The notes beneath the pieces are model-generated. The model was not told the DNA's origin, did no database searches, and saw nothing but the letters and a program-made list of their open reading frames with translations. This document shows, piece by piece, positions 1,574 to 63,188 of a stretch of 64,000 nucleotides of DNA. The stretch comes from Oncomelania hupensis. Its lineage: Eukaryota > Mollusca > Gastropoda > Littorinimorpha > Pomatiopsidae. The stretch's first letter is position 1. Each line of letters opens with the position of its first letter. The stretch is from the NCBI GenBank assembly GCA_036898135.1, contig CM072517.1, forward strand, positions 62,318,269 through 62,382,268, written 5' to 3'. Position numbers and translations under genes: made by a program.

Positions 1574-2301
1574 CGTTTGCATTTTACATCCCAGACGGAC
1601 TACTTCTTGATAATAATTCCCCTCAGACGAAGAAATCTCAGGTGGGTGATGATTTGAGACTCCATTGTACCTTGTGCAGTCATATTTCTAATTTGGCCAG
1701 AATTGTTACAGACAGCTTGCTCCACACTATCCAAGACAAATCTCGTTTAAAATTGGAGTTGTTCCGAAATTACTGTATATATTTAACCCCCCCCCCCCCC
1801 CCCCACCTTCCCTACGTGCTAATCGTTTTACTTCATTCCGCAGCAGACTCTGTTGTGGTTGATAACCTCCTGTACAAACTGTGGTACGTCAATCCGTGTG
1901 AATTTGTGCAGTGGTGTGGAATGGCACAATGGATAGTTATGTCGTCGTGACAGTGTTTATCTTGAATGAACGTTGAAGTTTGACGCACGCATACACCCAC
2001 CAAAAGGTTTAACATTTACCCTGACCTAATCGGAACGCTGAAACCAGATGTTATGATTTTGTGTATGCCTGGACAATAACTGAGACCAGTAACTCAGTCT
2101 AAGGTGTACGCAACTCTTTCAGAAAATCTTTTGAGTGTTATGAAAACGCTTTGCACCCTTTGTAACAATGGGGAGATGACATTTATACTGAGTCATTCCA
2201 CTTCAGGACACTCTGTTCGCTTCGTCTATCACGATTAAACACAAAAAAAGGATAAAGAACAAGAAAAACAGCCTTAATTAATTTGACCAGTGACAAATTC
2301 C
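1574..2301 (+). other. upstream region and probable 5' UTR splice acceptor
   Basis: This stretch precedes the SANT-domain gene. It contains a C16 run near 1789-1804. It ends in a pyrimidine-poor but plausible acceptor, TTTGACCAG, at 2282-2290, just 11 bp before the first in-frame ATG at 2302. A non-coding first exon further upstream is therefore likely, but I cannot locate it. Confidence 0.4.
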
Positions 2302-5300: not shown

Positions 5301-5756
5301 TCATGATGGCGACAACACCGGGACTCGGAACCATTCGGACCTGTCTCAAAACCCAACAACAGCGACGTCATCACCTGTGTCTCTGTCGTCAGCCAGACAG
5401 GAGAGAGTTTCCTTTAGCTGGGATGACGTTGATCGAGTTCGTTTGTCTTTATCATCGCCGTCATCATCCACTGCTGTGAGTGAAGGGAGACCCTCGCCGT
5501 CTGCCACAGAAAGTTTTGTGAAAGAGGAAGGGAATAGCGGTGTGGTAGAGGTGAGGTTTACGGACCTCAGTCCTACAGTTCGAACTTTGATGATCCAGAC
5601 ATTAAAGAATCTGGTAAGCGAAGACAAAGCTGTGGAACATTCCGTGAGGTCGCATCATGCTAAGGTGGACAGCTGTGGCGCTCTTGCTGCAGGTGAGAGT
5701 TACCAATGTAATGGATACTTAGAATTAGTGCGTGTGTGTGTGTGTGGGTGTGTGGA

Positions 5757-5790
<34 letters not shown>

Positions 5791-5868
5791 CGTGTGTCTT
5801 TTATTGAAAACTTTTTACATCGCAGTGATTTTAGCGGGTGTGGATATGGGGTTGGAGGTGGGGGGTAG
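2302..5868 (+). CDS. Myb/SANT-like (trihelix-type) DNA-binding protein with long disordered tail
   Basis: One open frame of 1,188 codons from ATG 2302 to the stop ending at 5868. The open frame extends slightly upstream, but the first in-frame ATG is at 2302 and it lies just after a possible acceptor. Residues about 28-108 look like a Myb/SANT-like DNA-binding domain: spaced tryptophans at W28, W34 and W46, then QWPSFSRTDKQCRDRIRRLK, a basic third-helix pattern. The family binds DNA as a transcriptional regulator in the nucleus. Residues about 110-1090 are Ser/Thr/Pro-rich with acidic patches and poly-Ser runs and look disordered. A short ordered segment, VEVRFTDLSPTVRTLMIQTL, lies near the end. 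The last 58 residues translate a GT microsatellite and look unnatural. A strong donor CAG|GTGAGA at 5693 suggests that some or all transcripts splice out before this tail. An AATAAA lies near 6029. The specific target is unknown. Confidence 0.75.
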
Positions 5869-11941: not shown

Positions 11942-14252
11942 TTAAAATAATAATGGATGCTGTACGCGCCTTACTTCTAAATCAGAGTGAAAACGCGGCG
12001 ATCTGTAACCAACAATCAAGCTCACATGTTACAGTTGGGGCCTCGGGCGGCTTGAGTTAGATCCTGTTTCGGCCAGCGCCTTGAGTCGCCAAGAACGGCG
12101 AAATATGTGCGCTATACAAATACCCAATAATAAAAAATAACATTCAAACCTACATACGTAACGAACACACATTCAGCAATCAAACTTGTGGTGTATAGCA
12201 TGTCGCAATTGAGAGACGGAAAGGAAATGGAATTTTTATAGGCCTATTGGATTAAAAAAAATATATATATATATATATATATTTTTAAGATTGATTGCAT
12301 GCATCCGATACCATTAATGAAGGGAGGGAGAAAACCAAAGTATCAGGAGAAAACCCTCTGAAAACTGAAACGTTTCGTACTTAAGTCACATAAAGTTCGT
12401 CTCCTGTGGGGTTCGAACCTTCGGCAACAAAATTAAACTGCGGCCTAATCGTTCTCCCCCCCCCCCCCCCCTTTAATTGGTAGGTCTGTGGTGACTGATT
12501 AATACATTTCTGGCATGGATTGTTTGACTGATTGATTTGTTCTATATGCAGGCGTGTGCGGTTATGGCGCTGGAGCGAGTTCCCGCTGACATCCGCCGTG
12601 AGGGTGGTGTGGCCAGAATGACTGACCCTAAGGTGAGCGACCATCTTAACACTATCTTAAGGCCGGCCAACAAGCCTCGCTCCCAAACCTCCCTGGAATG
12701 ACCTTCAACCCATACTCTTCCACACCCCTATTCGTCCGACCATTACATGATTAATCCCCAATAATAAAGATGTGAAAGTAATTTCAATCAATGATGACGA
12801 AGTAAATATGTCAAACACCCTCATCCAATGTCAATTGCTACCTCCTTTCTCCACCAGCCCTTCCCCCTCCCTCCCTTCCTCTCCCCCTTCCCCTCTCCCC
12901 CTCCCCCCTCTGCCTCTTTCTTAATTCCCACCCCCACGCCCTCATAGTGTACTTGCTTTGCATGATAATAAGAAAAGAGTTTATTGCGAATGTTCGAATG
13001 CTAGAGTGAAATGATTAACTTTTCTTTTTTGTACTACAACTAGTTACATGTAGATGGTTGTTTGGTGTTGAATTTCGTGTGTTCCATTGTTTTGGTATGT
13101 CCCACTGTTATTCTTTTTCTTCTTGTCTTTTAAATTGTGCCCACGTGACCAAATGAGTTTATGGAATGAAGAGTTTTGACTTTGACTTGACCCAACTTCC
13201 TCTCTCTTCCCCCCCCCCCCTCTCTCCCCCTCACATTCCTCCTCCGCCCTTTCCATTCCATCACACTCTCCACTCGGTTACTTACACGTTTTGAGCGGCT
13301 GGGCTCCAGGATTGCATCAGAAGAATTAAGAAGATCAACTTAAGATGTTTCATATATAAACAAAAATATATTGGCCACCCATGCTAGGCTGCGATCTCAG
13401 CGAAAAGCGCGGCAGTCGCGAAGCAGTGACGCCCACTCATCTAGGACTTGAGCGTCAGTGCAATGGCCGGTATTCGGATTCTGACTAAACCTCGGTTTAT
13501 ACTCTCACCTGAAGGAGTTAAGGAGTGTTTTTTGTTTGTTTTGGGTTGTGTTTACTGTCCTTTATTAATAAAGGTTAATGATGGGTTTCGTTTTGCCCAT
13601 CTTGGATGGTGTGTTTTCGTCTGCGTGCAGAAAATCAAAGACATCATCGCTGCGGTTACCATCCCAGTCATGGCCAAGTGCAGGATCGGCCATTTTGCTG
13701 AGGCTCAGATCCTGCAGGAACTTGGCGTGGACATGGTGGATGAATCGGAAGGTACGGATAACCTTTCTTCTTTGAACGGTATGCTTGGGGATCGCGTTGG
13801 CCCTCCTCCAAGGATGTCTTCTAAGCTGCTGCTGCTGCGGAATCTTTCTTTCAGATGGGACACTGGCCAAACGGAATGCCCTTTTAAGCTGCTTATGTGA
13901 GAACTTGCATATTAGTAATGTGGTTTCGTGAGCTCTTCTACCATCATGCTGTCTGTATAGTGCACAAGCTTGAACAAAGAAAGTGACCTCCGTCTCACTT
14001 TTAAGTATAGCTTGTGTCGTGGCTGTGTTCCAGTGTTGACGCCAGCAGACGAGGAGCATCACGTGGACAAGCACGCCTTCAAGGTGCCCTTCGTGTGTGG
14101 GGCACGTGACCTTGGTGAAGCGCTGCGCAGAATCAGCGAGGGCGCCGCCATGATCCGAACCAAGGGAGAAGCTGGCACAGGTCAGTATAATGATTAGGAT
14201 TGACGACGACGATGACGACGACGACGATGACGACGACGACGACGACGACGAC

Positions 14253-36400: not shown

Positions 36401-38376
36401 ATGACATAGAATGAATTCTATAACATAGAATGAATTCTATAGCAAAGAATGAATTCTATGACATAGCATTTATTCTATAGCATATAATGAATTCTATAAC
36501 ATAGAATGAATTCTACGACATAGAATTCATTCTGTAACATAGAATATATTCTATGCTATAGAATTCATTCTATGTTATAGAATTCATTCTATGTCATAGA
36601 ATTCATTCTATGTCATCTTATTCATTCTATGTTATACTATTCATTCTATGACTATATAATTCATTCTATGTCATAGAATGAATTCTATGTCATAGAATTC
36701 ATTCTATGCTATAAAATTCATTCTATGCATATAGAATTCATTCTTTATTATAGAATTCATTCTATGTTATACAATTTATTCTATGCACATAGAATTCATT
36801 TTATGTCATATAATTTATTTTATGTTAAAGAATTCATTCTATGTTATAGAATGAATTGTATGCACATAGAATAAATTCTATGTTATAGAATTCATTCTTT
36901 GTAATAGAATTCATTCTTTGTAATAGAATTCATTCTATGTTATAGAATATAATTCTATGCATACAAGTGCATTCTATAATATAGAATTGTATTACATACA
37001 TAGAATTTTATTCTCTATTATAAAATGTTATTCTATACATAGAAATTTATTATGGACATAGAATTTTACACTATATTATAGAATGTTATTCTATACAAAG
37101 AATTTTATTCTATGACTTACAATATTGGTTTCTTTTTTATAAATGGAATTTCAACTAATGAATGCTTTTTGTGTGCATAGAATGCTTTCTATGTGCATAG
37201 AATTTATTCTATGTATAGAATAGTCACATAGAATAAATGGACACATGGCGCCCCATATGAGTGGCAGTTACGCAAATGCCCATACCCATCCTCGGTCTGT
37301 CTCTGTCGCCATCGTTTCTGTCGGTATTGTCTCTGTCGGCATAGTCCCTGTCTCTGTCGGCTTAGTCTCTGTCTCTGTCGGTATAGTATCTGTCTCTGTC
37401 GGCATCGTCTCTGTCGGTACAGTCTCTGTCGGCGTAGTCCATGTCGAAATAGTCTCTTTCTCTTCCGGTCCTGATTTGGCTCGGAAGAGTCCGCTGGACC
37501 TAAAGCAACAATCAATCAATCAATCAATCTTTCTCTTCGGTACAGTCTCTGCCTCTGTCTGTATAGTGTGTCTCTGTTGGTCTAGTGTCTGTCGGCATAG
37601 GTTCTGTCGTTATACCTCTCTGTCGGTATAGTCTCTATTTCTGTCGGTATAGTCTCTGTCTCTGTCGGTATAGTCACTGTTTCTGTCAGTATAGTATCTG
37701 TCAATATAGTCTTAGTCTCTGTCGGTATAGTCTCTGTCGGTATAGTCTCTGTCTCTGTCGGTATAGTCTCTGTCTCTGTCGGTATAGTCTCTATTTCTGT
37801 CGGTATAGTCTCTGTCGGTATAGTCTCTGTCTCTGTCGGTATATTCTGTCTCTGTCGGTATAGTCACTGTTTCTGTCAGTATAGTCTCTGTCAATATAGT
37901 CTCTGTCTCTGTCGGTATAATCTCTGTCGGTATAGTCTCTGTCGGTATAGTCTCTGTCTCTGTCGGTATAGTCTTGTTTCTGTCAGTATAGTCTCTGTCA
38001 ATATAGTCTTGTCTCTGTCGGTATAATCTCTGTCGGTATAGTCTCTGTCGGTATAGTCTCTGTCTCTGTCGGTTTAGTCTCTGTCGATGACGGTATAATT
38101 TCTGTCGGCATAGTCTCTGTCTCTGTCGGTATAGTCTCTGTCGGTATAATCTCTGTCGGTGACGGTATAAATTCTGTCGGCACAGTTTCTGTCGTTATAG
38201 TTTCTGTCGGCATAGTCTCTATCTCTGTCGGTACTGTCTCTGTCGGCAAAGTCTTTATCTCTGTTGGTATAGTCTCTGTCTCTGTCGGTATTGTCTCTGG
38301 CGGCAAAGTCTTTATCTCTGTCGGTATAGTCTCTGTCGGTATAGTCTCTGTCTCTGTCGGCATAGTCTGTCGGCAT

Positions 38377-38449
<73 letters not shown>

Positions 38450-38746
38450 ATTTATTTATTTATTTATTTAGTATTGGCTTGTTGTTTTGTTCTGTCGCCA
38501 GCATGTCAGAGGCTCCTGTCGCAATTCGTGACGTACGCAAATCACTCCTCGTACTTGACCCCAGGTAACTACACAAAAGCCGTTCTACCCTTCGCCGAAT
38601 GCAGCCCTTGGTGCTTGAAAAAAACTGGCTGCCTGTCGTACGTGTACCAACCCCCCAACAGTCTTTGCGCCGTCCCAAACAGCCTGCCCGATCGCTGGTT
38701 CCAAACCACAGATGACCGGAGCTACTCGCAACGAGCCTGCTTTTAA
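28018..38746 (+). CDS. secreted cysteine-rich protein, PAN-like / EB-like / PAN-like (3 exons)
   Basis: Exons 28018-28336, 30248-30394 and 38502-38746 splice in phase 1 at both junctions and give 711 nt, 236 residues. The start ATG follows AAAA and is followed by G. Residues 1-25 form a signal peptide with a FTLFFFLSVSCLSF core. The rest of exon 1 has a C-x3-C-x5-C pattern followed by a fourth Cys (QCAMTCTSNEDCLSF), like PAN/apple modules. Exon 2 has six cysteines in EB/EGF-like spacing (ACVTNSTCSQPNSQC, then CLC). Exon 3 repeats the PAN-like spacing (ECSPWCLKKTGCLSY). Such modules bind proteins or carbohydrates outside the cell, so a lectin-like or recognition role is an inference. Intron 2 is 8.1 kb of repeats. 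The donor at 28337 is G|GTGGGT and that at 30395 is A|GTATGT. No clear poly(A) signal follows. The domain names are tentative. Confidence 0.72.
28664..29185 (-). mobile_element. solo LTR-like fragment split by a SINE
   Basis: The minus strand matches the LTR-like sequence at 52647-52915. Shared landmarks include ATTCTGATTGGCTGTAATT, GATGTACGCTGAATAAAG, TTGGAAAACTTCAT and GACTCCTGCCTTGTTGCTGA. No internal retroelement domain is next to it. The SINE at 28873-29066 interrupts it. The outer limits are approximate. Confidence 0.75.
28873..29066 (-). mobile_element. tRNA-derived SINE, copy 2, with target duplication
   Basis: 194 bp flanked by a perfect 10-bp duplication CCCAACTCTG at 28863-28872 and 29067-29076, which fixes both ends. 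On the minus strand it starts AGGGGCCGGGTAGCTCAG, includes box B GGTTCGAATCCCGG, and ends GACTATAATCTACAAACAA. It is the best-defined copy of the family and inserted into an LTR fragment. Confidence 0.92.
29920..30205. repeat. (GAT/GAC)n microsatellite just before exon 2 of the secreted gene
   Basis: About 280 bp of GAT and GAC triplets ending 40 bp upstream of the acceptor at 30247. The Asp-rich open frame running into the exon is an artefact of this array. Confidence 0.9.
30490..30885. repeat. ~250-bp minisatellite with TTAGGG-like blocks, part 1
   Basis: The unit has TACACAGTGTTATCTGGACA, CCTACTTGTTTTGACGTCAG, then short TTAGGG-type repeats, then AACACTGCAAAGTACTT. A second unit starts about 250 bp later. 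The array resumes at 32390-32800. A GT run precedes it at 30433-30490. Confidence 0.8.
30886..32389. mobile_element. unassigned ~1.5-kb insertion within the minisatellite
   Basis: Unique sequence splits the minisatellite array, suggesting insertion. I find no inverted ends, tRNA-like head or recognisable protein. The open frame at 31405-31752 has no domain character. The class is undetermined and it may simply be an unrelated rearranged segment. Confidence 0.4.
32390..32800. repeat. ~250-bp minisatellite with TTAGGG-like blocks, part 2
   Basis: Further units of the array seen at 30490-30885, in the same orientation, followed by a GT/CG dinucleotide run at about 32797-32830. The TTAGGG-like blocks are short and embedded in the unit. 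Confidence 0.8.
33087..37257. mobile_element. 4.17-kb foldback-type element with >1-kb inverted arms
   Basis: The ends TATGGGGCGCCATGTGTCC and GGACACATGGCGCCCCATA are perfect inverted repeats. A direct TGAGT lies immediately outside each end, at 33082-33086 and 37258-37262, a probable 5-bp target duplication. The inverted match continues inward through single-copy landmarks (for example TTACAATATTGG/CCAATATTGTAA and the AAAACTGGGGCACTGTC block) to about 34385 on the left and 36130 on the right. Much of each arm is made of short palindromes such as ATTCTATGACATAGAAT. A direct array of GAACATTCTATGTTATAGAAT units lies at about 35090-35470. No transposase is visible. The whole element sits in intron 2 of the secreted gene. 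Confidence 0.88.
33895..34103. mobile_element. ~200-bp insertion in the left arm
   Basis: This AT-rich segment interrupts the palindromic array of the left arm only and ends with ATAAATAAACAATT followed by (ATT)n. The right arm lacks it. The simple-repeat tail suggests a small retroposed sequence. Confidence 0.5.
37290..38375. repeat. CTGTCGGTATAGTCT-type minisatellite
   Basis: About 1.1 kb of degenerate 12- to 18-bp units made of GTCTCTGTC and GGTATA blocks. It is followed by a (TC)n tract at 38379-38447 and a TTTA run up to 38470. Open frames on both strands (for example poly-TETIP) are artefacts. A retroelement tail interrupts it at 37468-37528. Confidence 0.9.
37468..37528 (+). mobile_element. 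isolated 3' end of the (CAAT)n-tailed element inside a minisatellite
   Basis: It contains GGTCCTGATTTGGCTCGGAA, GAGTCCGCTGGACC and (CAAT)n, and both sides resume the minisatellite (CTTTCTCTTCGG duplicates the flank CTTTCTCTTCCGG). This is a clear de novo insertion of about 60 bp. Confidence 0.85.
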
Positions 38747-39396: not shown

Positions 39397-42300
39397 TCCT
39401 ATCCTATCCTATCCTATCCTCCTATCCTGTCCCGTAACCCGGAGGTCGTCGGGGCACCACAGATGATCGTTTAACCAGCGTACTCCATCTTTCTCTGTCC
39501 TCAGCAGCCCTGATGCCTTCGCTCAGTGTCAAACCAGTCCATTTTCGAATGTTGTCCTCCCACCTCTTTTTCGGTCTCCCTCTTCTTCTACCTCCTTGCA
39601 CTGTGCCCTGCAGAATAGTCTTTGCAAATCCTGATGATCTGGTGACGTGGCCATACCATCGGAATTTCCGTTTCTTCACCACTGTGAGCAGGTCATCGTG
39701 TTGTCCAATGGCTTGTGTGATGGTCTGTCGGACTTCGTCGTTGGTGATGTGTTGGGTATAGGAAATGCCCAGAAGTCTTCTGTAGCACCTCATCTCCATG
39801 CTTTGTATTCTTCGTTGGAGATCTGCCGTGAGGGTCCATGCTTCGCAAGCATATAGGAAGATGGAGATGACAAGGGAGCGCAGCAGTCTTTTACTTTGGA
39901 ATGTAGACTGATGGTCCTGTCTTTCCAAATGGGCTTCAACCTTGTCAGGCCAGCAGTTGTTTGTGCGATCCTGGAGAGGACTTCCTGTCGGGACCCATTG
40001 TCTGATACAATGGCTCCTAAATATTTGAAGCTATGCACTGTGTTGAGGGATTCGCCTTGGACTTTGATGTCCGTGTTGATGCCATTGGTGTTGTTGGTCA
40101 TCATTTTGGTCTTCTCTGCACTTTTTTCCATTCCATAGGCTCTGGAGGTGGTGTCAAGCCTCTGTACCAGCTGTTCAAGTTCTTGTTCTTCTCCAGCCAA
40201 TCCATCAATGTCATCCGCAAAACGAAGATTGGAGATTGCTCTACCCCCTATGCTGACTGGGCCTTCTGACATGATGCGCTCTAGGCAGATGTTGAAGAGT
40301 GTTGGAGAGAGTAGGCATCCTTGACGCACACCGATTGTTGTTCTGAACCATTTCCCGATGGCGCTGTTGTGGAGGACTGCACTGGTAGCCTTGTCATACA
40401 GGCTTTTGATGACTTCAATAATTTTAAGCCTGATGTTGTACACTTTCATTGTTGCCCATAGAGCTGCATGCCAGACTCGGTCAAACGCCTTCTTGAAGTC
40501 TATGAACACATGATATAGATGTTGTTGGTGCTGTAGGTATTTCTCGCAGATTATTCTGAGGTTGAAAATCTGTTCAGTGGTACTTCGTTCTGCCCTGAAT
40601 CCTGCTTGTTCTTCAGCTATGATTTGTTCAGCTTGGGGTTTCAACCTGTTGAGTATTATTTTGAGGAGGACCTTGCTGGGATGGCTGATGAGGTTGATGG
40701 TGCGGTAATTTTTACACTCCTGAAGGTTACCTTTTTTGGGAAGAGTGATGACAAGCGACTGGGTCCATGGTATAGGCCAGTGTTCCCTCCACACACACAA
40801 AATGAGAGTCCTTGGGACTCCCAGGTATAAAATTTTAAGAGTCCTTGTGCAAATTTTGAGAGTCCCCAAATCGGAAAAAGAAATGTAAAAACAAGTCCAA
40901 GCCTAACTTTTTTTTTTAAACTCTGTTAAAGCGTCACATTAGTTATCATAATCATATAAAACCAAAAAATTAAAACATGTATTAAATGACAACTCCCGAC
41001 ACAATCTTCAATCGTCTGCAATGGCAGTCTCAGTTGGGTTCTGATTCTGATTATGCCGTGAATTAGTTCGCCACTAGTTGGTCGTATTTTTGACTTCAGC
41101 GATTTGAAAAAAATTTGTGCGTCAGGACGCACACATGCAAATTTTTCTGCGTCCTTTTTCATATTTTGTGCGTAATTGACGCACTACTGTGCGTAATCGG
41201 GAACACTGGTATAGGCCACTGCCCACTCTGCCAGATCTTGTTACAAATAATGGTGAGGGCATCAATCATCGCTTCTCCTCCTGCTTGTAGCAGTTCCGTG
41301 GGTATGTTGTCCACTCCCGCTGACTTCCCTTTCTTTAGCGATTGCACTGCTGCCTCAACTTCTTCCCGGAGAATTGGGAGGATTTCTTCTTCTTCTCTAT
41401 TCTTGGGACATGTTAGAACTGATGGGTCTCCATTTGGTGAAGGGTTGTAAAGGTCAGAGCAGTACTCTGTCCATCTGTCCAAGACTTCTTGTTCTTCTGT
41501 TGCTTTGGATCGTGGAGACTTTGGGCTGTTTGATACTTGTCAGCTGCTTCACAGTCTGGTAGGCCTTCTTGCTGTTGTTCTTGTTCAGACTGTTCTCTAT
41601 TTCCTGGCATTGATCTTCTATCCAGTTCTCCTTTGCTGTGCGCATGCCTTTTTGGATGTCATTGTTGATTTTTCGGTAGACATCAGCTCCGTGTGAGGTG
41701 TTCTTTTTCTTTTTCATCTCTCTTCGTTTATCACACAGATCCAAAAGTTCAGGTGTGATCCACGGCTTCTTCTTTGGTCGGTGCTTGCCAAGGATCTCAG
41801 TGGCGGCATCTGTCACAGCTGAGTTGAAGGTGGTGGTCATGGTATTGACATCTACATCACCAGCCCCAAAAATGAGCAGTGGTGCAAATGTCCCTCCAAT
41901 TGTGGCCTGAAATAGTTCTGCCACCTCTGGGTCTTGCAGTTTGTCCAGGTCGAACTTCAGTCTAGTGCACTTTGCTGTATTTACTCTCTTTAAGTGGTGC
42001 CGGAAAGACATCATCACGAGATCGTGGTCACTTCCGATGTCTGCTCCTGGAAAAGTGCGTGTCCTGCCAATGTTGATGCTTGATCTGAAGCGTTTCTTGA
42101 CCATGATGTAGTCTGGTTGTGATGCTCCCCGCCGGGACTGTGCCATGTCCATCGTCTGGAGTTTTTGTGGAAACCAAGCGTGTTTGCCAGTACCAGATTG
42201 TTGTATCTGGCAAACTCTAAGAGTCTCAGACCCCTGTCATTTGTCTCGTTGTTGCAGTGGGGTCCACATGTGTCTCCCCAGTTGTGGTGCGCATCTTGGC

Positions 42301-46540: not shown

Positions 46541-46689
46541 CATACTATACTGCACTAATAATGTCATTAATTTCAAGTTTATGTCGTCTTCTATTTAATA
46601 TGCCAAGCCTGTGTGTTATGTGCCACTGTGCTATCGAGAATACGCTATATAGGCTCCCCACATGTATAATGCCCTTGTGTTGCGCCTGT

Positions 46690-47160
46690 GCAAGTCCGTG
46701 AAAGCCTTTCTGTGCAGATCCGGCTGTGCAAGGCTGTTTGTGCAAGTCCGTCTGTGCAAGTCTGTCTGCGCAAGTCTGTTTGTGCAAGTCCGTCTGTGCA
46801 AGTCTGTCTGCGCAAGTCTGTTTGTGCAAGTCCGTCTGTGCAAGTCTGTCTGCGCAAGTCTGTTTGTGCAAGTCCGTCTGTGCAAGTCTGTCTGCGCAAG
46901 TCTGTTTGTGCAAGTCCGTCTGTGCAAGTCTGTCTGTGCAAGTCTGTTTGTGCAAGTCCGTCTGTGCAAGTCTGTCTGCGCAAGTCTGTTTGTGCAAGTC
47001 CGTCTGTGCAAGTCGTATGTGCAAGACCGTCTGTGCAAGTCTCTCTGTACAAGGCCGTCTGTGTAAGTCCGTCTGTATAAGTTTGTCTGTGCAAGTTTGT
47101 ACAAGTTTGTCTGTATAAGTTTGTACAAGTTTGTCTTTACAAGTTTGTCTGTACACGGTT
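46690..47160. repeat. 14-bp minisatellite with a 42-bp higher-order unit
   Basis: The core 14-mers CAAGTCCGTCTGTG, CAAGTCTGTCTGCG and CAAGTCTGTTTGTG alternate in a strict 42-bp period from about 46743 to 47007, with degenerate units on both sides. Because 42 is divisible by 3 and no stop occurs in the unit, all six frames are open for 130 to 217 codons. There is no sign that any is translated. Confidence 0.93.
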
Positions 47161-47986
47161 TCACAGGAGGACAAACTTGGCTCCAAAATATACAACACGC
47201 AGATTTTTTATTCTTTCCGATTTTTATTAAATATATATTTTAATCTCCAGTATTCAGCCTCAAATAAATGAGAAACGCGAACACAAAAATCTAAATATAC
47301 CTGGTTCTCCGATACAAAAGTATTACGAAAACAGCAGGGTAGATAATAATCAAGATACTACTACCTACGCAATGTCAATAAAACCGTAACTACATAATAA
47401 AAGTTATAAAATTAAAATTGCGGTAAAAATGTTAAAATTGCGGTAAAAATGTATCTTATTACAATACACAGCTCAGCCAATGTGCATGTTTTGTAAATAT
47501 TTTAATGTAAAATATGTATAAAAGTAAATATTTATATAACTTTATAAAAAATATTCAGTTTCAGATAATATACATTTAAAGTAAATATTTTAATTGAAAA
47601 TATATATTAAAGGAAATATTTAAATAGTTTATTGTATTGTATGGTATTGTATTACAAACTGTAATGACACTGGCAGGAAAATGCGATTATCCCTATGTGA
47701 AGATTCAAAGTGAATAAATGTTTTTGTTGTTGTTGTCTTTTTAAAATAAATATATACAGCTTGCCTCCTCTCTTGATCACAGTGTAAGAAAATTGGTGTG
47801 TCCGCAGAGTGGAACCACTACCTGCCTGTTCAAATGGGTTGTAAGGGAAATTATTTACCTAAGTATACCCCTGGCATAGTGTAAAAACATATCAAGCAAC
47901 CCGATTGGCGTTTCAGTCACACCCAGCCAATCAATTAATTCCAAACATCTGCTTGTAAAGGAAATGTTCATTCATACCCGACGTTG
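47161..47986. other. AT-rich stretch with no feature
   Basis: No gene is visible. It holds short near-repeats of TAAAATTGCGGTAAAAATGT at about 47410-47455 and of AAATATTT units. Confidence 0.5.
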
Positions 47987-50835: not shown

Positions 50836-52915
50836 CGAGTTTTATTTTGATTGGATGATTATGTCATTCTGGAGCGTTCCACGTTTTTCCAGTTTGTTGA
50901 TAGACTCTATATAAGTAGAATGCTGTCTGCTTAGTAGTGTGCTTTGGAAAGACCTTGTATGCCCGTACGAAGTGGAGACCGTGGTGGGGATCAACGACTA
51001 CAAGGTGAAGGTTGGCCAGCATTCCAAGATATACCACGCCAACCTCCTTAAGCTGTACGTGGAAAGGTCGCCAGAGACTGTACACGCAGCAACAGCAGCT
51101 GAGATCGACGACAGCTTTGACAGCGAAGAACTATTGGAACTTGGAGACTTCCACAGCAAAGAAGGCATCGATGATGTTAAGCTAGGACCAAGCTTAACGG
51201 AGGATCAAAAGTTGGAGCTCAATGACCTTATTGGCGAGTTTCCACATAACTTCAGTGATGTCCCAGGCTCTACGACTTTAGTCGAACATGAAATCCACCT
51301 TACTTCAAATACTCCCGTTCGATCCAAACCCTTCCAGATCCCTTTCAAGGCCCGCGAATCCTTGAAGAAAGACATCGATGCGATGCTGAAGATGGGCATC
51401 ATCAGGGAGTCCAGATCCCCCTACGCTTCCCCTGTCGTGGTCGTGAAGAAGAAGGACGGGAGCAACAGAGTATGCATCAAATACAGGAAGGTTAACAAGA
51501 TCACCGTCTTCGACCCTGAGCCGATGCCTACTGCAGCAGACCTCTTCCGCCAATTATCGGGGAGTATCTTCTCAAAGATTGACCTCAGCAAGGGTAATTG
51601 GCAAGTCCCCGTGTCAACAAGACATACCAAAGACTGCTTTTATAACTTCTGATGGGACGTACGAGTGCCTAAGGATGCCCTTTGGCATGGTCAACAGCGG
51701 AGCTACCCTGAAGAGAGGGATGAAGAAGATGCTCAAAGGGATGGACAACGTCGTGTGTTACTGGGACGACCTGCTAGTCCACACCCACACCTGGGAAGAG
51801 CATCTGCAGACCTTGAGGGAGCTGTTTCACCATCTGACAGAAGCTAACCTGACCGTGAGACTCAGTAAGTGCATTCTGGGAACTGATAACGTCGACTTTA
51901 TCGGCTATTTGCTGAAAGAAGGACAAAAGGGGCTTCTGCTAAAAAATGTCACCAAGATTCTGAGCTCTCCACGTCCCCAAACAAAGAAGCAAGTGCGGTC
52001 TTTCCTGGGATTGGCTGGGTATTATAGGGAGTTCGTACCGAACTACTCAGCCATCACAGCACCTTTGTCGGACCTGGTGCGGAAAGGCTGTCCTAACCAA
52101 GTGCAGTGGGGACCGTCTCAGGAGAAGGCATACCAGACTGTGCGCGACCTCCTTTCGAAGGATCCGGTGCTACGACTGCCCGATACTTCCAAGGAATTCG
52201 TCTTAAGAACAGACGCAGCGGACGAAGGCATCGGCGCCATACTGATGCAAGAACACACGAAGGGAAACTATTTCCGGCCAGTTACGCCAGCAAGAAACTG
52301 TTGAGGGCTGAGAAAAATTATTCGACCATGGAGACTCCGGAAGTTCGAACTGTACCTTCAAGGAGTGAAGTTCGTGCTACAGACTGATCACAAGCCGCTA
52401 ATCTTCTTGAACTCTGCCAAGTTTGTGAACAGTCGAATCAGTACTTGCAGAACTTTAACATGCGAGTACAATCTATGAAAGGATCAGACAATGTTGGTGT
52501 GGACTTTCTCAGCAGAGTGTGTGAGTAAAGAATACTGACAGTATCCAGACAGACTGAAATAAGTTTTAATTCTGGACTTTGTTTGCTCATTGCGTCTCAA
52601 CGTTGTTGAAAGAAATTAAGTAAATTTCTTCATGCGTAGGGGGTAATGTTCTGATGATGAAGTTTATTCTGATTGGTTATAATTGCGGCACACTGGAACA
52701 TTCTAACTTATCTGGAGTATAGAAAAAACTATATAATTGATGCACTGTCTTGTGAAGAGAGGGAAAGTGGTAAAAGCGATTGCATGCAGTTGTTGATGTA
52801 CGCTGAATAAAGTTGGAAAACTTCATACGACGACTCCTGCCTTGTTGCTGAGTGAACAGGTGCGTGGATAAACGAATCCGAGTTACACTTATCAGGATTC
52901 AAGCATTGGGGCTTA
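50836..52915 (+). mobile_element. decayed Ty3/Gypsy-like LTR retrotransposon, Gmr1-like domain order
   Basis: A diverged LTR-like start (50836-50935, with CTATATAAG) is joined directly to pol. Frame 50939-51652 opens with an integrase C-terminal GPY/F-like module (CPYEVETVVGINDYKVKVG). A linker follows, and then the N-terminal half of the reverse transcriptase (SPYASPVVVVKKKDG, KIDLSKGNWQVPV). A frameshift near 51620 moves the reading to 51579-52304. That frame has MPFGMVNSGATL, the YWDDLLVH active-site box (usually Y-x-DD), LGLAGYYREFVPNYS and an RNase H start (LRTDAADEGIGAILMQE). RNase H then decays. An LTR-like 3' end follows at about 52647-52915. Gag, protease and most of the integrase are absent. 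Integrase before RT is the Gmr1 arrangement. Confidence 0.85.
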
Positions 52916-53922: not shown

Positions 53923-56900
53923 TCACTTCAAGTCCGTCCTAATGCCGGTACGGTAGTCCAAGGGTTTGATGGCAGTGAACGTGGCGGGTGGTCTTAGTAC
54001 AGAGGCTTGCACTGTTGTGCCTCTGGCCACGCGTAGCCCGTCTTCCTCACTGCTCCAGTGCTGGGACGACCACATCGTCTGCAGCACTGCCTGGGCTTGC
54101 GGATCTGAAAGCTGAAGCGGAGAGCGCGTCGCCCTTTTGGCCAATGTTAGCCCCTGTTCCCTTCCTCTTGTTGCCATTGACTGGACCACAGCGCCTTCGT
54201 CTGTTGAACGTCCGTGGTTGTAATGTAACAGCAGTTATTTCAGACGACGTCTAGCAGACGACCAGATACAGTATTGTAATATGCTATCGCCTTGATTTGT
54301 TTAGGGTAATGGATGTAAAGATAGATTACATTAACTTAAAAATAACTTAAAAACTGACGCACAGTCACACTGCACAATAGCTTGAGATAGAAAGGAAAAG
54401 TAATGTCAATATTATCGCGTTATTTTCCAAAAGTTCAACAAACTGTTCGCAATGATTCAAATGAAAATATTGATTCTGTTATGAGAACCGGGAATAATCG
54501 TAATATCGCATGAAATAATCCGTGACACAAACAAAAATCCAACAATATCAATGACTGACTGCAAGTGTAAGAAAAGAAAGACAGAGTGACTGACCGGCAA
54601 GGCTTGGATAAGGGTAGACCTGCATGATCCTCCGTGCGTCTTGCTCAGTCAGCGTGTCCGTTTTGCCGCGAATGAAGCTTTCGATGCAGCAGCAAGCCGC
54701 CAGGCGACTTTCAACGCCTTTGGACACTTTCCACAGCTGGACAGGGGGCGGCCGAAACTTCAATCCATGACACATCATTCGCGGTCGATTTATCGCTCTC
54801 CGTGGCATGAGAAGTCTGAATGATGAACGTGCTTTTACCGTCTGCACAGTTTCGTCAACACTTTCCTTCGGTTTGAGATAACGAGAGAGCCTAGCCGCAG
54901 CATCAACTTTCAAAGTAAGCACTCTGCCAGGAAGTGTAGCTGAAGATCCGCCTCCATATTTTTCACTCAGGTATCTCAGACGCAGGTATTTGCCCAGCTC
55001 GGGATTCAGAACACTCAACAACTGCAGACTCTCCTTAATCTCCATCCTGTCGACCTCTTCAAACCACTCCTCCTCCTCCAACATTTTGTGCTGCTGGGCT
55101 GCGATGTCTTCACTATAAACTCCCCGAATTTGTGTTCTACTTTCGCCCACAAATAATTTGGAAAAGATTATCGGTTTGACACCCTCGATGCCTCTCTCTG
55201 CGAAGATGGATGAGCGAAGAGATATGGTGGGTGTTGTTCTCATCCCTTTGGGCTTTGTTACCTCCGATTTACGGAGTCTCACTATCAATGCCTCGCTCGT
55301 GCGGGCTGTTCTACCAGCACTTACATCGTCTTCTTCTTTTTGAACGCCGTCAGACCGCTCCCTGACAAGAACCTTCAATCCTGAACCCCTTCTTACCCTA
55401 GCCACTGACGGCTCTCCAGAGAAATCGGGATGTGATGCCTTGCTCACTGGAGCTGATGTGGGAAAAGAGGGAGTCTTTAACCAATGTGGTTGAATGGACC
55501 GAAGTTGGTCCTGTGGATAGCTGCATGTAGTGGAAACGTGGGGTAGTGTGGCTGGCTCGATTAATATAGTCGATGACCGTGTAATCTCGGGCAGGGGCTT
55601 ACTAATTTTCGACACTTTTAGCTGAAGCTCTGCAGAGAGAGCTCCACACATTTGTGCAGCAATAGTTGGCACACTTGAGAACGACGAGGTTTTCGACTGC
55701 ATGGACGGCAGTGCAACAAGCGACGTTCTGCGCTGCTGCTGAATGGCCGATAATTTTCGGTCGTTTTGCTGCCTTAAGCCGTCTGAACGTTGAGCAGTGA
55801 CGTGGTCCAGCAAACGCTGAGACATTATAGCGTCAGCTGCGGCTTTTAGTTCTATAGCGGTGGGCGGGAAAATAGGTAAGTCCTCGTTATCAGGGAACGA
55901 AGACATCGCATCATACTTTGTCTTAGTCTCTGGGATGGACTTGAAGATGTCTGGGTCAGAGAACCTGGGCATGTCGCTAAACGTTACTGACAGGTCTCCG
56001 AAGAATTCTGTGACCCCTGCCTCTTTATCACCATCTTCGGCCAGCGCATCCGTCGACGGAAAGTGCCTGCTGGCTGGCCTTCTCAGACCCCACATCTCTT
56101 GGATGGATTCTATTTCAGTCAGACTCGTCTTGGACAGCGGCTCCTGGGTAGCGGTAGTGGTGGTGGCTGGGACCGTTGAGGAGGAAGGGAAGTCCTCCAG
56201 AAGAGATCGACCTCCGATGAAGTCAAACTGTGATGTCAAACGGCGTGTCGCTCCTGGCTTGGACGTAAGGCAAATGGATGGCTTCTTTGGCTGTTGTTCA
56301 TCTGCATCTACGTCATCTTTGCAAGTTTCCTCAGATTTCACTAGGGACGGCTTCCCAAGCTGTTGTCCGCTATCCTCTACCTCCCCATCTGTGTGTTTTT
56401 CTCCGTCGTCGGGCTCTGTTGGGCTGGAGTCTTTTTCCTTTTCTGGCAGGTTTCCTAAGCGCTGAGGTTCTTTGGTCTCGGCAGGTGACAATGTAGATTT
56501 TCTAGGCGTATATCCGGCAATCTTCCACTCCTTTGATGGCTTTCTGGAAAAGACAGCCCCCAGATATTTTGTAATCGTCGAAATACGTTGCCCGTGTTTT
56601 GCGAACATCTTCTTGCCGCCATATGTTGCTTTTCTCTCAACCCTCGGCTTTGGTGTCGTAATGCTTGGAATGTTTGGAGATGTCACGTCATGCTGTCTTG
56701 ACGGTCTTTTGGAGTCTTTTGACTCGACAGAGAGCTTCGGCTCATTTTCGGTTGAGGTCATGGCCCAGCCCATTCGTTCAGTAGCTATTGTGGGAAGGAA
56801 AGCCGTTTTGGAATCCCCTTTGGCAATAGTGACAACGGCTTTGGCCTTGACAGCTGTTGTACACATTTTGTCAAAAGTAGTCACGTTTCCAGGAGACGAA

Positions 56901-59900
56901 ACAACAAATTTTCTCCCAGCCTGGTAAACAGACAATTTGCGAGCGCCTTCCATCGCCGTAGAGGTCTTTGGTTTAACAATAGAGGTCCTTTGTTGTCTTC
57001 GCTCAACAGACATTTTATGAGCATGACCTTTCCCGGTTGTAGAGTCGGCAGTTTGTAGATCAGTTAACGATACTTTCATTCTACTTGTGGCTCTCAAAGA
57101 CTGCATTACTTTTCTGACAGCCTCATAGAAGCGTACTTTCCCTGTTGATTTAATAGCGACAGACAACCCCTTGAGGACACCAAAGGGAGGGGCTTTTTTT
57201 GTTGGATGAGATTCCCGCTGTAAAGAAGCAGACAATGGTAGCCTATGGGCAACAAGTTCAGGACAGTGGAATGCGGTACTGGGTGGTAGCTGACTGACCT
57301 TTGTCTTACTTCTAACCAGCGCCTGCTGTTTGGACTCATCCAAAATGGTCAGTAACTTCTTGGACTCCGGTGGTTTTGTGCTTTGGCTAAACATTTGTTT
57401 GACATTCAGGCACTGTTGCAATAAACTCTTTAAGTCCCGCTGCCCTTTCTCCGCCAGGGGCTTCACTTCCTTCACAGTCAAGGCTGCCAGGTCTGGAAAA
57501 GTGGCCTTCTGTAAAGAGCTTTGGAGCAAATCCTCTTCCAGTGCTTCCAAGTTCAGTGATTCTGGGGCAATGCCAGCTTCAATCAACAAACTGCGCATTC
57601 GGTCGGTAAGAGTCCCTCCCGCTATTTCTAACAGGTCGTCCGACTCTATTTGGAGGTTTCTGATGAGGTGTAGGATTTTTTCTGCCTTCAGACCTCGTGC
57701 TACCAGCTGTTTGACATTGTCAGCAGTAAGGCCTGAGGCCAGCAAATCTCGTATATCGTCTACTAGCAAGCCGGCGTCAATCAAAGCTTTGGCATCTTCA
57801 TACCGGAACCCTGCAGCACAAAGCTGCACCACGCCTGCCATGTTGAACCCCATCTTCATCAACTTATTAAAGTCACGGTGTCGCATGCCAACGCTCGCCG
57901 CGATCACGATGTCATTAAGGCACAAGCCCAGCTCTGACAACTCGTGAATATCTTTTACTGTCATACCACCCGTGTATAAAGTCACGATCTCGTCTACACT
58001 AAACTTCATAGCCTGTACCTGCAGGAAGTACTGCACAGATATATCTGCTTTCAGCAATGTCAGGATGTCGTGCACGGGAAGCCCCAGCCCCAATTCACTG
58101 AACACAAGCACGTCGTCCAATTCAAATGCACTCCTTGCCACTGCTATCATGTCATCATAAGCAAAGCCATGTTCTCTGAACCGTTCAACACTGTCAGCCG
58201 TCAAAGCAATCAAAGCCTGTTCTACGATTTGATCCACGGTGAAACCCATGCGCTGGAGTGGCTCGATGTGCTCCATGTGGAAGTGGGCGGAACGGCCACC
58301 AAATACTACCATGTGGTGTATAGAAAAATCCCGTTCCAGCAGATATTTGGCGTCGGACGCCTTCAGGCCGACGTTGGCTAGCTGCAGCATGTCGTCCACA
58401 GAGAAGACCATCTCCATCATCTGCATGACTTCTTCAGCGGGTAGAGCAGCCAGCGCCAGTTTGACCACGTCAGCGGGCGACAGCCCTAGCAGCGAGAGTT
58501 GCTCCACGTGCTCCAAATCAACGATCCCTGATCCCAGCAGCAGCATGTCTGCCAGGGAGAAGTCCAACGCCCGTAGTCTCTGTACGTTATCAGCGTTCCA
58601 CCCTGCCGTGGCCAGGTCCAGCATTTGATCAAAACTGTAATCCATGGCCTGCAGCCTGAGCATGTCGTCTACAGTCAGGCCCAAGGACGCCAGGTGGCTG
58701 ATATCTTCCACGGCGAAGCCTATCCCCGTGAGTTCTTTTACCTGGTCGGTCCTGATTCCCATAAGTCCCAGTATGCTCACGTCTTCCACCCTCACGCCCA
58801 GCTTCAGCAGGTTGTCCACATCCTGTGCCGTCATCCCCACTGCCGCCAAAAGCGTGATGCTGTCCAAAGAAACGCCCATGTCTAACAGCCTTCTCTTCTC
58901 CTGGTCGTCCATGGCCTCCGCACGCAGCATGTGCTCCACAGGGATGTTTCTGCTCAGCATGGCCAAGACGTCGGTGATTGACACTTCGGCTTTGGCCAAC
59001 GATACAATACTTGAAGGACTCACTCCCGACACCAACATTCGCATGACGTCCTCCGCCTTGTACAGTTTGAACTTGGGTCGAAGGCTGGCCTCGTCTTGTT
59101 CGTCTTCCTTTCCCTGTGATCCCGCCAGCAAGTCCAACTCAGTGTGTAGCAAACCCAACACCATTTGTACCAGATCATCCAGGGAGCCCTCGGGGACCAG
59201 CGACACGCCGCTGTCCATCTTGTTTTGCAATCTTCTAATGAATGCGGAGGCGGCGAATCTCACGCGGTAACTAAGGGCAGCTGGTTTCTTCGCCTCGGGC
59301 GCCTTTTCTGTAACCGCCACTACTTCTTCATCCAACGACAAGGTTTTCTTCTTTCCTTCTGTCATTGTCCTCTTTACTTCTGTCGGCTCAGGATGGGACG
59401 ACAGGGCTGCCATAGGCTGTCAATGAAAAGAAACACAAACAAACACACGCAGACACACACACACACACACACATACACACACACGCACACAACCCACCGC
59501 ACAATACAACACATACGCACGCACACACACACAAACACACCCACCCACACACACACGCAAACACACACTTACGATTACTGTGTTTAGGTACTACTACTCT
59601 TCCCGGCTGTGAGATTTTTACACGGTATACGCAACCATGCCCTCTAATTAATTAAGAAACGAAGGCACGAAACAAATCTGCAGTACGTGCGCTTGCGCGT
59701 CGCATCTCGGAGCAATTAAGCCACACAGATTTGAACACACAATACTTGAACTTTTTGTTGTTTTTCTGTACCACACTACATTCAGAATTTCCTAAATAAG
59801 AGAAAACCACTGTAGGTTATATACAAAGCAACTCAGAAAATAAACTGTCGCATAATAGAAACGCTTCCAAGTAAATTGCAAGAAACGTGTTATTAATCGT

Positions 59901-60021
59901 AGTATTATATATAGGTATACGTTGTTTTTTTTAAAAACACTCTGCATTCCTTGTGTTTTTTCAGAAATGAAAAGACTTACCTGATCTGCTTTTACATCCT
60001 TGGGGGGTTTGATTTCTGACG
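53923..60021 (-). CDS. large protein with >30 tandem 13-residue helical repeats (3 exons seen, 5' end beyond)
   Basis: I do not recognise the family. Exons on the minus strand are 60021-59981 (encoding SEIKPPKDVKADQ), 59416-54595 (1,607 codons) and 54200-53923. The phases match: 0 at the first junction, 1 at the second (GCCG|GTCAGT to CAACAG|AC). Numbering from the internal Met at 59413, residues 118-613 are a tandem array of 13-residue units, pattern G-h-[ST]-h-x-D-h-x-x-L-x-x-h. Units include GFAVEDISHLASL, GLTVDDMLRLQAM and GLTADNVKQLVAR. Residues 193-586 hold 30 contiguous units, 28 of exactly 13 and two of 15. Each unit looks like a short helix with an S/T-x-x-D/E cap, so an alpha-solenoid scaffold is inferred. 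Residues 614-1430 are basic, Ser/Thr-rich and probably disordered; the C-terminal 190 residues look folded. There is no signal peptide or membrane segment. The initiating exon is not found. Confidence 0.85.
59440..59570. repeat. (CA)n-rich microsatellite in the intron of the repeat-protein gene
   Basis: An imperfect CA run with CACG interruptions, lying between the exons at 54595-59416 and 59981-60021. Overlapping frames are artefacts. Confidence 0.9.
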
Positions 60022-61328: not shown

Positions 61329-62934
61329 CAATGGCGTAGCTAGGGATTTTAGGGGTACGGTACGGGGGGGCTTGGCCTCTTTGGGGGCCGCTGCATTTTG
61401 ACATTGGCCATCATGACATGAGATAATGTACTTAATAAATATATCAGTCTAAATTTACTAACTTATATAACAACGTGAATACCAAGATTACATGGCGGTG
61501 GCGTAATATTTAATATTTATTCCTATCCTATCCTATCCTGTCCCATAACCCGAAGGTCGTAGGGGCGCCACAGATGATCGCTTAACCAGCATACTCCATC
61601 TTTCTCTGTCCTCAGCAGCCCTCATGGCTTCGCTCAGTGTCAAACCAGTCCATTCTCGAATGTTGTCCTCCCACCTCTTTTTCGGTCCCCCCCTTCTTCT
61701 ACCTCCTTGCACTGTGCCTTGCAGAATGGTCTTTGCAAGGCCTGATGATCTGGTGACGTGGCCATACCATCGGAGTTTCCGTTTCTTCACCACTGTGAGC
61801 AGGTCATCGTGTTGTCCAATGGCTTGTGTGATGGTCTGTCGGACTTCAATGTTGGTGATGTGTTGGGTATAGGAAATGCACAGAAGTCTTCTGTAGCACC
61901 TCATCTCCATGCTTTGTATTCTTCGTTGGAGATCTGCTGTGAGGGTCCATGCTTCGCAAGCATATAGGAAGATGGAGATGACCAGAGAGCGCAGCAGTCT
62001 TACTTTGGAATGTAGACTGATGGTTCTGTCTTTCCAAATGGGCTTCAACCTTGTCAGGGCAGCAGTTGTTTGTGCGATCCTGGAGAGGACTTCCTGTCGA
62101 GACCCATTGTCTGACACAATGGCTCCTAAATATTTGAAGCTGTGCACTGTGTTGAGGGATTGGCCTTGTACTTTGATGTCCGTGTTGATGCCATTGGTGT
62201 TGTTGGTCATCATTTTGGTCTTCTCTGCACTTATTTCCATTCCATAAGCTCTGGAGGTGGTGTCAAGCCTCTGTACAAGCTGTTCAAGTTCTTGTTCCTC
62301 TCCAACCAATCCATCAATATCATCCGCAAAACGAAGATTGGAGATTGCTCTGCCCCCTATGCTGACTGTGCCTTCGTGATCTGCAAGAGCATCTGACATG
62401 ATGCGCTCTAGGAAGATGTTGAAGAGTGTTGGAGAGAGTAGGCATCCTTGACGCACACCGATTGTTGTTCTGAACCAGTTCCCGATGACGCTGTTATGGA
62501 GGACTGCACTGGTAGCCTTGTCAAACAGGCTTTTGATGACTTCTATAATTTTAGGGCTGATGTTGTAAACTTTCATGGTTGCCCATAGAGCTGCATGCCA
62601 GACTCGGTCAAATGCCTTCTTGAAGTCTATGAACACATGATATAGATGTTGTTGGTGCTGTAGGTATTTCTCACATATTATTCTGAGGTTGAAAATCTGT
62701 TCAGTGGTACTTCGCCCTGCCATGAATCCTGCTTGTTCTTCAGCTATGATTTGTTCAGCTTGTGGTTTCAACCTGTTGAGTATTATTTTCAGGAGGACCT
62801 TGCTGGGATGGCTAATATTTATTGTTAAAAAAAAATTTTCGCTCACTCCTTTGGGGGCCCCCCTCAAGTGGGGACCCGGGGGGGACTTTCGAATTTGGAC
62901 CCAACCTCCTCCCCTTCCCATAGCTACGCCACTG
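61329..62934. mobile_element. hAT-type MITE copy 2, split by a LINE
   Basis: The two outer pieces (61329-61520 and 62814-62934) together match the MITE at 25829-26109. The ends are CAATGGCGTAGCTAGGG and CCCATAGCTACGCCACTG. The 8-bp flanks GTTATGAG and GTAACGGG are only partly alike, so the target duplication has decayed. A LINE lies between the pieces. Confidence 0.88.
61521..62813 (-). mobile_element. RTE-like LINE, copy 3 (5'-truncated, long intact frame)
   Basis: On the minus strand the LINE part enters at AISHPSKVLLKIILNRLKP and runs through GFMAGRSTTEQIFNLR, DFKKAFDRVWH, GVRQGCLLSPTLFN and FADDIDG to the C-terminal GHVTR region. It ends in (GGATA)n at 61521. A 10-bp flank AATATTTATT is present on the right (62814-62823) and at the left junction (61512-61521), a target duplication. 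One frame stays open from 61533 to 62921 (462 codons), reading into the MITE, so this insertion is young. The endonuclease is lost. Confidence 0.93.
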
Positions 62935-62958
62935 GTAACGGGTTTCTTCCTGCGTTGG

Positions 62959-63188
62959 TAGATGCTACTTTTAGCTCGGTGTAGATGCTATTTTTAGCTC
63001 GGTGTAGATGCTATTTTTAGCTAGGTGTAGATGCTATTTTTAGCTCGGTGTAGATGCTATTTTTAGCTCGGTGTAGATGCTACTTTTAGCTCGGTGTAGA
63101 TGCTATTTTTAGCTCGGTATAGATGCTATTTTTAGCTCGGTGTAGATGCTATTTTTAGCTCGGTGTAGATGCTATTTTTAGCTCGGTG
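62959..63188. repeat. 23-bp tandem repeat, 10 copies
   Basis: The unit TAGATGCTATTTTTAGCTCGGTG repeats ten times without spacers, with a few single-base changes. It lies just outside the hAT MITE. A G-rich run follows at 63211-63230. Confidence 0.93.

Follow-up and report, generated by a model that had tools for sequence, protein, structure and literature searches.

The DNA analysed here, 64,000 nucleotides from the gastropod Oncomelania hupensis (GCA_036898135.1, contig CM072517.1, positions 62,318,269 to 62,382,268 of the forward strand; hereafter the window), carries on its minus strand a gene for a large protein in the front third of which a unit of 13 residues is repeated over a long array. 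Two kinds of unit alternate, so that the strongest period is 26 residues, and two sister genes were found in the same genome. From the structure models, the array is best read as an alpha solenoid of a known structural class with an unusually small hairpin.

The array gene and its sisters

The gene consists of the following parts, in window positions:

54595..59416, minus strand: main exon, an open reading frame bounded by AG and GT; protein numbered from Met 59413, 1606 codons plus one base
57656..58837, minus strand: strict repeat array, residues 193-586; 30 units with one predicted helix each, of which 28 have 13 residues and the other two 15, read in pairs as 26-residue A/B hairpins
58838..59065, minus strand: array continued towards the N-terminus in looser form, residues 117-192; well-fitting units at 117, 130, 143 and 180, irregular at 156-179
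55214..57436, minus strand: tail, residues 660-1400, rich in Ser, Thr, Lys and Pro, basic (isoelectric point 9.7), without repeat signal
54608..55213, minus strand: C-terminal module, residues 1401-1602, common to both sister genes, with the motifs RLRYLSxKY and PVxLW ... VExF.R ... IM
53923..54200, minus strand: last exon, 3' of a 394-base GT-AG intron (54594-54201); C-terminal end ...IKPLDYRTGIRTDLK, then stop; phases 1 and 2 agree
59981..60021, minus strand: candidate upstream coding exon, with AG ahead of it and GTAAGT behind, its phase fitting that of the main exon; unconfirmed, proposed from sequence

The minus-strand frame 54548-59419 runs for 1623 codons from stop to stop, and the splice borders of the main exon are an acceptor AG at 59418-59417 and a donor GT at 54594-54593, matching exactly the coordinates that an earlier note on this DNA had given to the exon. 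The borders and phase of the last exon were derived by hand. By eye, no signal peptide was seen in the N-terminus from Met 59413, upstream of which a further exon is possible, and the product is probably an intracellular protein of about 1700 residues.

When the whole 1.45 Gb genome was searched, two loci with intact frames were found on another contig, C2, namely P0003 (L019), of 1802 codons, and P0004 (L026), of 1142 codons; the window protein is P0001. Their intact frames support the reality of the exon 59416-54595. Moreover, the C-terminal module is shared by the three proteins, as phmmer gave 31.2 bits for P0001-P0003, 24.1 for P0001-P0004 and 22.4 for P0003-P0004, compared to maxima of 8.9, 10.6 and 8.9, respectively, in 500 shuffles each. 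Since the genome-wide matches of the module to P0004 alone were weak (E 0.25 and 0.32), the C-terminal link of this sister is taken from the phmmer comparison and from the last exon, which matches L030:1487-1636 with 46% identity over 52 amino acids (E 5e-8 when six loci were searched). The last exon of P0003 was sought in 4.3 kb downstream and was not found there. The intact frames of the sisters, the shared C-terminal module and the conservation of the last exon in one sister show that the array gene is real, and the window gene with its sisters forms an animal gene family for which no annotation was found in the searches made.

The charge is distributed in the same way in P0001 and P0003, with isoelectric points of 4.65 and 4.45 for the arrays and of 9.7 and 9.3 for the tails; disorder of the tail, residues 660-1400, is taken from its composition. 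No IQ-like pattern occurs in P0001, P0003 or P0004. Basophilic sites of the form [RK][RK]x[ST] number 10 in the P0001 tail (4.5 expected; 13 of 1000 shuffles as high), 9 in the P0003 tail (5.0 expected; 54 of 1000) and 12 in the P0004 tail (4.3 expected; 0 of 1000, although this tail is duplicated), an excess that is suggestive only. The duplication in P0004 (L026 717-4145), seen by eye, is a near-identical tandem one, starting LISSKEQVHPSAQKAKSYDKK.

Alternating units of 13 residues

The autocorrelation of residues 110-620 gave 101 identities at lag 26, 83 at lag 13, 77 at lag 39 and 75 at lag 52, while in 1000 composition shuffles of the same segment the best lag averaged 50 and never exceeded 64; for residues 621-1130 and 1131-1621 the autocorrelation was no better than in their own shuffles. 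The 13-residue periodicity described in the earlier note is thus real, being beyond all of the shuffles, but the strongest period is 26 and not 13. Lag 26 is stronger because alternate units differ, hence the A/B hairpin reading: in one kind of unit (n = 15) Lys or Glu fills position 8 in 7 units and Leu or Met fills position 13 in 10, and of the other kind (n = 15) 11 units have Val or Leu at position 8 and 7 have Ala at position 11.

The units were mapped by dynamic programming, using a 13-residue position-specific model with free joints. The chain score of the whole protein was 553.6, compared to a maximum of 19.5 in 200 shuffles; however, the unit model was trained on the real sequence, and the autocorrelation is therefore the fairer test. 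Units start at residues 193, 206 and so on up to 574, giving 30 units over 394 residues, all but two of which are 13 residues long; the exceptions, of 15, are those at 362 and 429, and within the strict array the two-residue inserts occur only after these. Ahead of residue 193, good units were found at 117, 130, 143 and 180 and a poor one at 162, with irregular linkers in 156-179. This separate segmentation reproduces the gapless split of residues 193-586 proposed in the earlier note, as well as its count of at least four further units before them.

Mean identity between units is low, 1.9-3.1 of 13 residues at lags 1-15, and what is conserved is a pattern, which agrees with the one first described: position 1 is Gly in 19 of the 30 units, the hydrophobic share is 100% at positions 2 and 7, 97% at 10, 90% at 4 and 70% at 13, and the net charge is most negative at positions 5 and 6. 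Under the rules of helix capping, this is the pattern of a helix that is closed by Gly and followed by a hydrophobic bridge, with Ser/Thr as N-cap and acidic residues as capping box of the next.

The sister genes carry the same units. In P0003 the chain found has 28 units and is interrupted by two inserts of two residues (score 193.3, compared to a maximum of 18.4 in 300 shuffles). For P0004, six in-register units were assigned by hand over residues 112-189, three of which were recovered by the automatic chain (18.7, compared to a maximum of 11.0 in shuffles). As repeats inflate scores, controls for profile matches were made by permuting positions identically within every period; a profile of the two sisters matched the window array with 117.4 bits, whereas the maximum in 200 such permutations was 5.0. 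When the units of P0003 were slid along those of P0001, the six top-scoring offsets were all even, with zero the best, and the A/B pairing is therefore a conserved trait of the family.

Predicted structure and known repeat families

Structures were predicted with AlphaFold2 in two jobs, the second covering a shorter segment. The best of the five models of the first job contains 30 helices for the 30 units, 24 of them nine residues long, and 29 of the 34 ten-residue blocks over residues 170-509 have a predicted local distance difference test (pLDDT) of 80-91; residues 117-192 are also predicted as helices, mostly at lower pLDDT. In the second job, pLDDT was 77-94 across the first 120 residues. 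In both jobs a second look at the Foldseek ranking gave as closest folds, among PDB chains, TALE, designed helical repeats and mTERF, with Z at background level. In the viral fold library, none of the 253 listed matches reached E<=0.001.

The array was not placed in a known repeat family by Pfam, NCBIfam, PHROGs or PDB sequences, in agreement with the earlier note, whose author could not place it in one. Pfam listed three families for P0001 at E<=10, with UBA_3 above its cut-off and DUF433 and MLLE_2 below; TPR, PPR, HEAT, ARM, ANK, PUF, Sel1, mTERF and M56 were absent from this list. P0001 had no match in NCBIfam, and its best E was 0.12 in PHROGs and 0.15 among PDB sequences (0.42 for P0003), in which the C-terminal module had no match at E<=10. 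The matches to UBA_3, DUF433, MLLE_2 and MerR were put down to a chance resemblance between short capped helices. DUF5645 was found in P0004 (27.3 bits, cut-off 26.8), in the tandem-duplicated tail. Full-length P0001 gave no orthologue at E<=1 among 7988 scored candidates, a result that, with candidate lists capped, does not show that orthologues are lacking. Of the checks suggested at the outset, the single-sequence AlphaFold2 prediction returned the helices expected of each unit in the best model, and the search for orthologues recovered none among the scored candidates.

As to the literature, no description of a 13-residue helical repeat was found among the openly licensed papers that the searches listed, judged by titles and the starts of abstracts; one of the listed papers concerns 13-residue repeats in expansin-like nematode proteins (PMC3377709). 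A review on alpha solenoids distinguishes eight subfolds, and gives 30-42 residues per repeat for ANK, HEAT, PPR, PUF, TPR and TAL (PMC11514114). The claim that known helical repeats are longer holds against these figures, with 26 residues per hairpin here; TPR, PPR, HEAT, ANK and PUF resemble the array in being alpha solenoids and differ in their repeats of 30-42 residues, and Pfam listed none of them for P0001. TAL effectors and BurrH, which are among the top PDB fold chains, have, according to the same review, two short helices per repeat in a left-handed two-helix bundle, but their 34-residue repeats are near-identical and read DNA through a variable pair at positions 12-13 (PMC11514114). 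In the array, by contrast, the period is 26 (13+13), units share 2-3 of 13 residues, many positions vary and the whole is acidic. The mTERF proteins differ in having repeats of about 30 residues (PMC4005652), made of three helices with a conserved Pro (PMC11417379), whereas the array is read as 26-residue pairs of predicted helices. In the top-eight residue lists of the units, Pro appears at positions 3 and 4 only, in 2 of 35 each. The designed left-handed toroids (dTor, 4yxy, 5byo) and the nanocage chain 8v2d_J are man-made, and dTor_9x31L is, by its name, a toroid with a 31-residue repeat. To our knowledge, a 26-residue hairpin would be the smallest among natural helical-hairpin repeats. A published screen for TALE-inspired repeats covered lengths of 30-43, allowed no more than five mismatches per pair and discarded composite repeats (PMC5472282); because of these lengths, the mismatch limit and the removal of composites, a 13-residue array would escape it.

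Origin and possible role of the array

The best sequence match found lies in bacteria. Searched alone, the array gave one match (E 0.19) among 7995 scored candidates, an M56 peptidase with a repetitive tail; with a profile of the three paralogues, two matches were obtained among the same number of candidates, this protein at E 6.1e-12 and a second M56 protein at 2.7e-8. The observed scores, 67.9 and 55.2 bits, were reached in none of 300 period-preserving permutations each (maxima 24.2 and 13.6). A scan of genomes with the tail of P0002 gave ten loci (L001-L010), three of them in acidobacterial records and the other seven in Sphingopyxis, which are no independent sample since they were found through that tail. 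Autocorrelation peaks at lag 28 in P0002 as well as in each of the ten loci; in P0005 the peak is at 58, with 29 one identity behind. These M56 (BlaR1-type) tails resemble the array in that a capped 13-residue A helix alternates with a second short helix, and differ in a period of 28 or 29 (13 + 15 or 16; 12 of 12 sequences, never 26) and in being joined to a protease domain. Nothing above cut-off was found by Pfam on the P0002 and P0005 tails. The resemblance in pattern is real, and common descent would be one possible explanation of it.

It is possible, if somewhat doubtful, that the array was born within animals from a 39-base minisatellite encoding a capped helix by chance, in which case the bacterial likeness would be convergence. 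Several 39-base minisatellites of the same genome do translate to similar-looking 13-residue units, but more than one of their frames is open, they were selected by their likeness, and nothing shows that they are genes. Four of these (L020 2660-3814, L021 2768-3532, L022 3836-5707 and L024 2649-3710) have a translated period of 13 residues and an array-like look; they are probably not genes, and might possibly be raw material for such arrays. Of the rows of the genome search, C6, C10, C4, C7 at 74 Mb and C14 are minisatellite-like, and C12 (L025) encodes a receptor whose domains are LDL-receptor, leucine-rich and 7tm_1, in line with an animal genome.

That the array and the bacterial repeats share descent, by transfer between lineages or from a very old ancestor, with a shortening from 28 to 26, appears unlikely. 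The two profile matches go well beyond their permutations, and in P0002 the 13-residue halves score as A type in 7 of 7 and the 15-residue halves as B type in 5 of 7; on the other hand, the latter fall below zero in the 13-residue register in 7 of 7, the period of 26 is never seen in the bacterial set, ten of whose twelve members are not independent, no M56 domain was listed by Pfam for P0001, P0003 or P0004, and repeats of capped helices can converge.

The rest of the window holds several other features. Two RVT_1 reverse transcriptase frames, of non-LTR (long terminal repeat) type by guess, lie on the minus strand at 61533-62987 and 39790-40902, and a 3' end similar to theirs was seen by eye at 39422-40030 and also in L020 and L021. 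Pieces of reverse transcriptase and RNase H extend across two overlapping frames at 50915-52304 (plus strand), and long minisatellites with several open frames occupy 37601-38568 and 46545-47239. On the plus strand, a frame of 1193 codons at 2287-5868 encodes a Myb/SANT-like domain (Myb_DNA-bind_4, E 4.1e-12), the remainder being long and rich in Ser, Thr and Pro, and a 42-residue match to the vitamin B6 synthase family SOR/SNZ (E 3.1e-18) lies at 13445-13900.

As for the role of the array, its acidity together with the basic tail argues for binding of protein, and against binding of nucleic acid, by the array, and a nucleic-acid-binding superhelix like TALE or mTERF seems to us quite improbable even though these are among the nearest folds. 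A ubiquitin-binding series of UBA-like domains is the least credible reading, as UBA_3 (residues 560-591, E 9.2e-6, 25.8 bits, cut-off 20.4) covers 32 of 55 profile positions in a single place, P0003 and P0004 have no UBA row at E<=1, and the likeness looks generic because the bacterial P0005 tail matches the same family at E 0.06.

We consider it rather probable, instead, that the array is an acidic alpha-solenoid scaffold of 26-residue hairpins, holding a protein partner and anchored by the basic tail and the C-terminal module. Each 13-residue unit would form one short helix, Gly1 ending the preceding helix, the hydrophobic residue at 2 covering the joint, Ser/Thr3 and the acidic positions 5-6 capping the start of the next, and positions 4, 7, 10 and 13 facing the core. 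The B-type helix (like GFSVDDIVxLA), with two hydrophobic sides, should sit inside, and the amphipathic A-type helix (like GLTADDVKQLQEL) outside. Piled on one another, the A/B hairpins may then give an unbroken solenoid, probably left-handed, that has about 35 helices and is acidic on its surface; this would most likely grip its partner lengthwise, while the long tail and the C-terminal module could attach the scaffold to another component.

Several observations weigh against this scaffold. The structures rest on single-sequence predictions; the remaining four models of the first job average pLDDT 42-60, and in the best one the end of the array (residues 510-586) is at 61-73. Residues 372-469 fall below 60 in the second job, the latter half of which was of poor quality, though well predicted in the first, and the continuous stack of hairpins is predicted in the best models only, unevenly between the jobs. 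The solenoid that the earlier note had drawn from the 13-residue period is partly supported by the best model, in which each unit has a helix of some nine residues, but of the five models this one alone is fairly confident. Moreover, a long array is not required across the whole family, since P0004 has just six units, and conservation of unit order between P0001 and P0003 is unsupported, as 114 of 300 order shuffles within type do as well.

We propose, tentatively, that these proteins represent a so far undescribed natural alpha-solenoid class, in which single-helix units of 13 residues, paired as 26-residue hairpins, would make up a superhelix that counts about 35 helices in this family of animal genes, sharing the capping rule of the 28-residue repeats of the M56 tails and being the natural counterpart of the designed left-handed toroids. 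If this is true, natural helical-hairpin repeats could be smaller than the minimum known to us, and one capping rule every 13 residues would be enough to build a long solenoid; the array family also draws attention to a repeat without a name that bacterial proteases carry.

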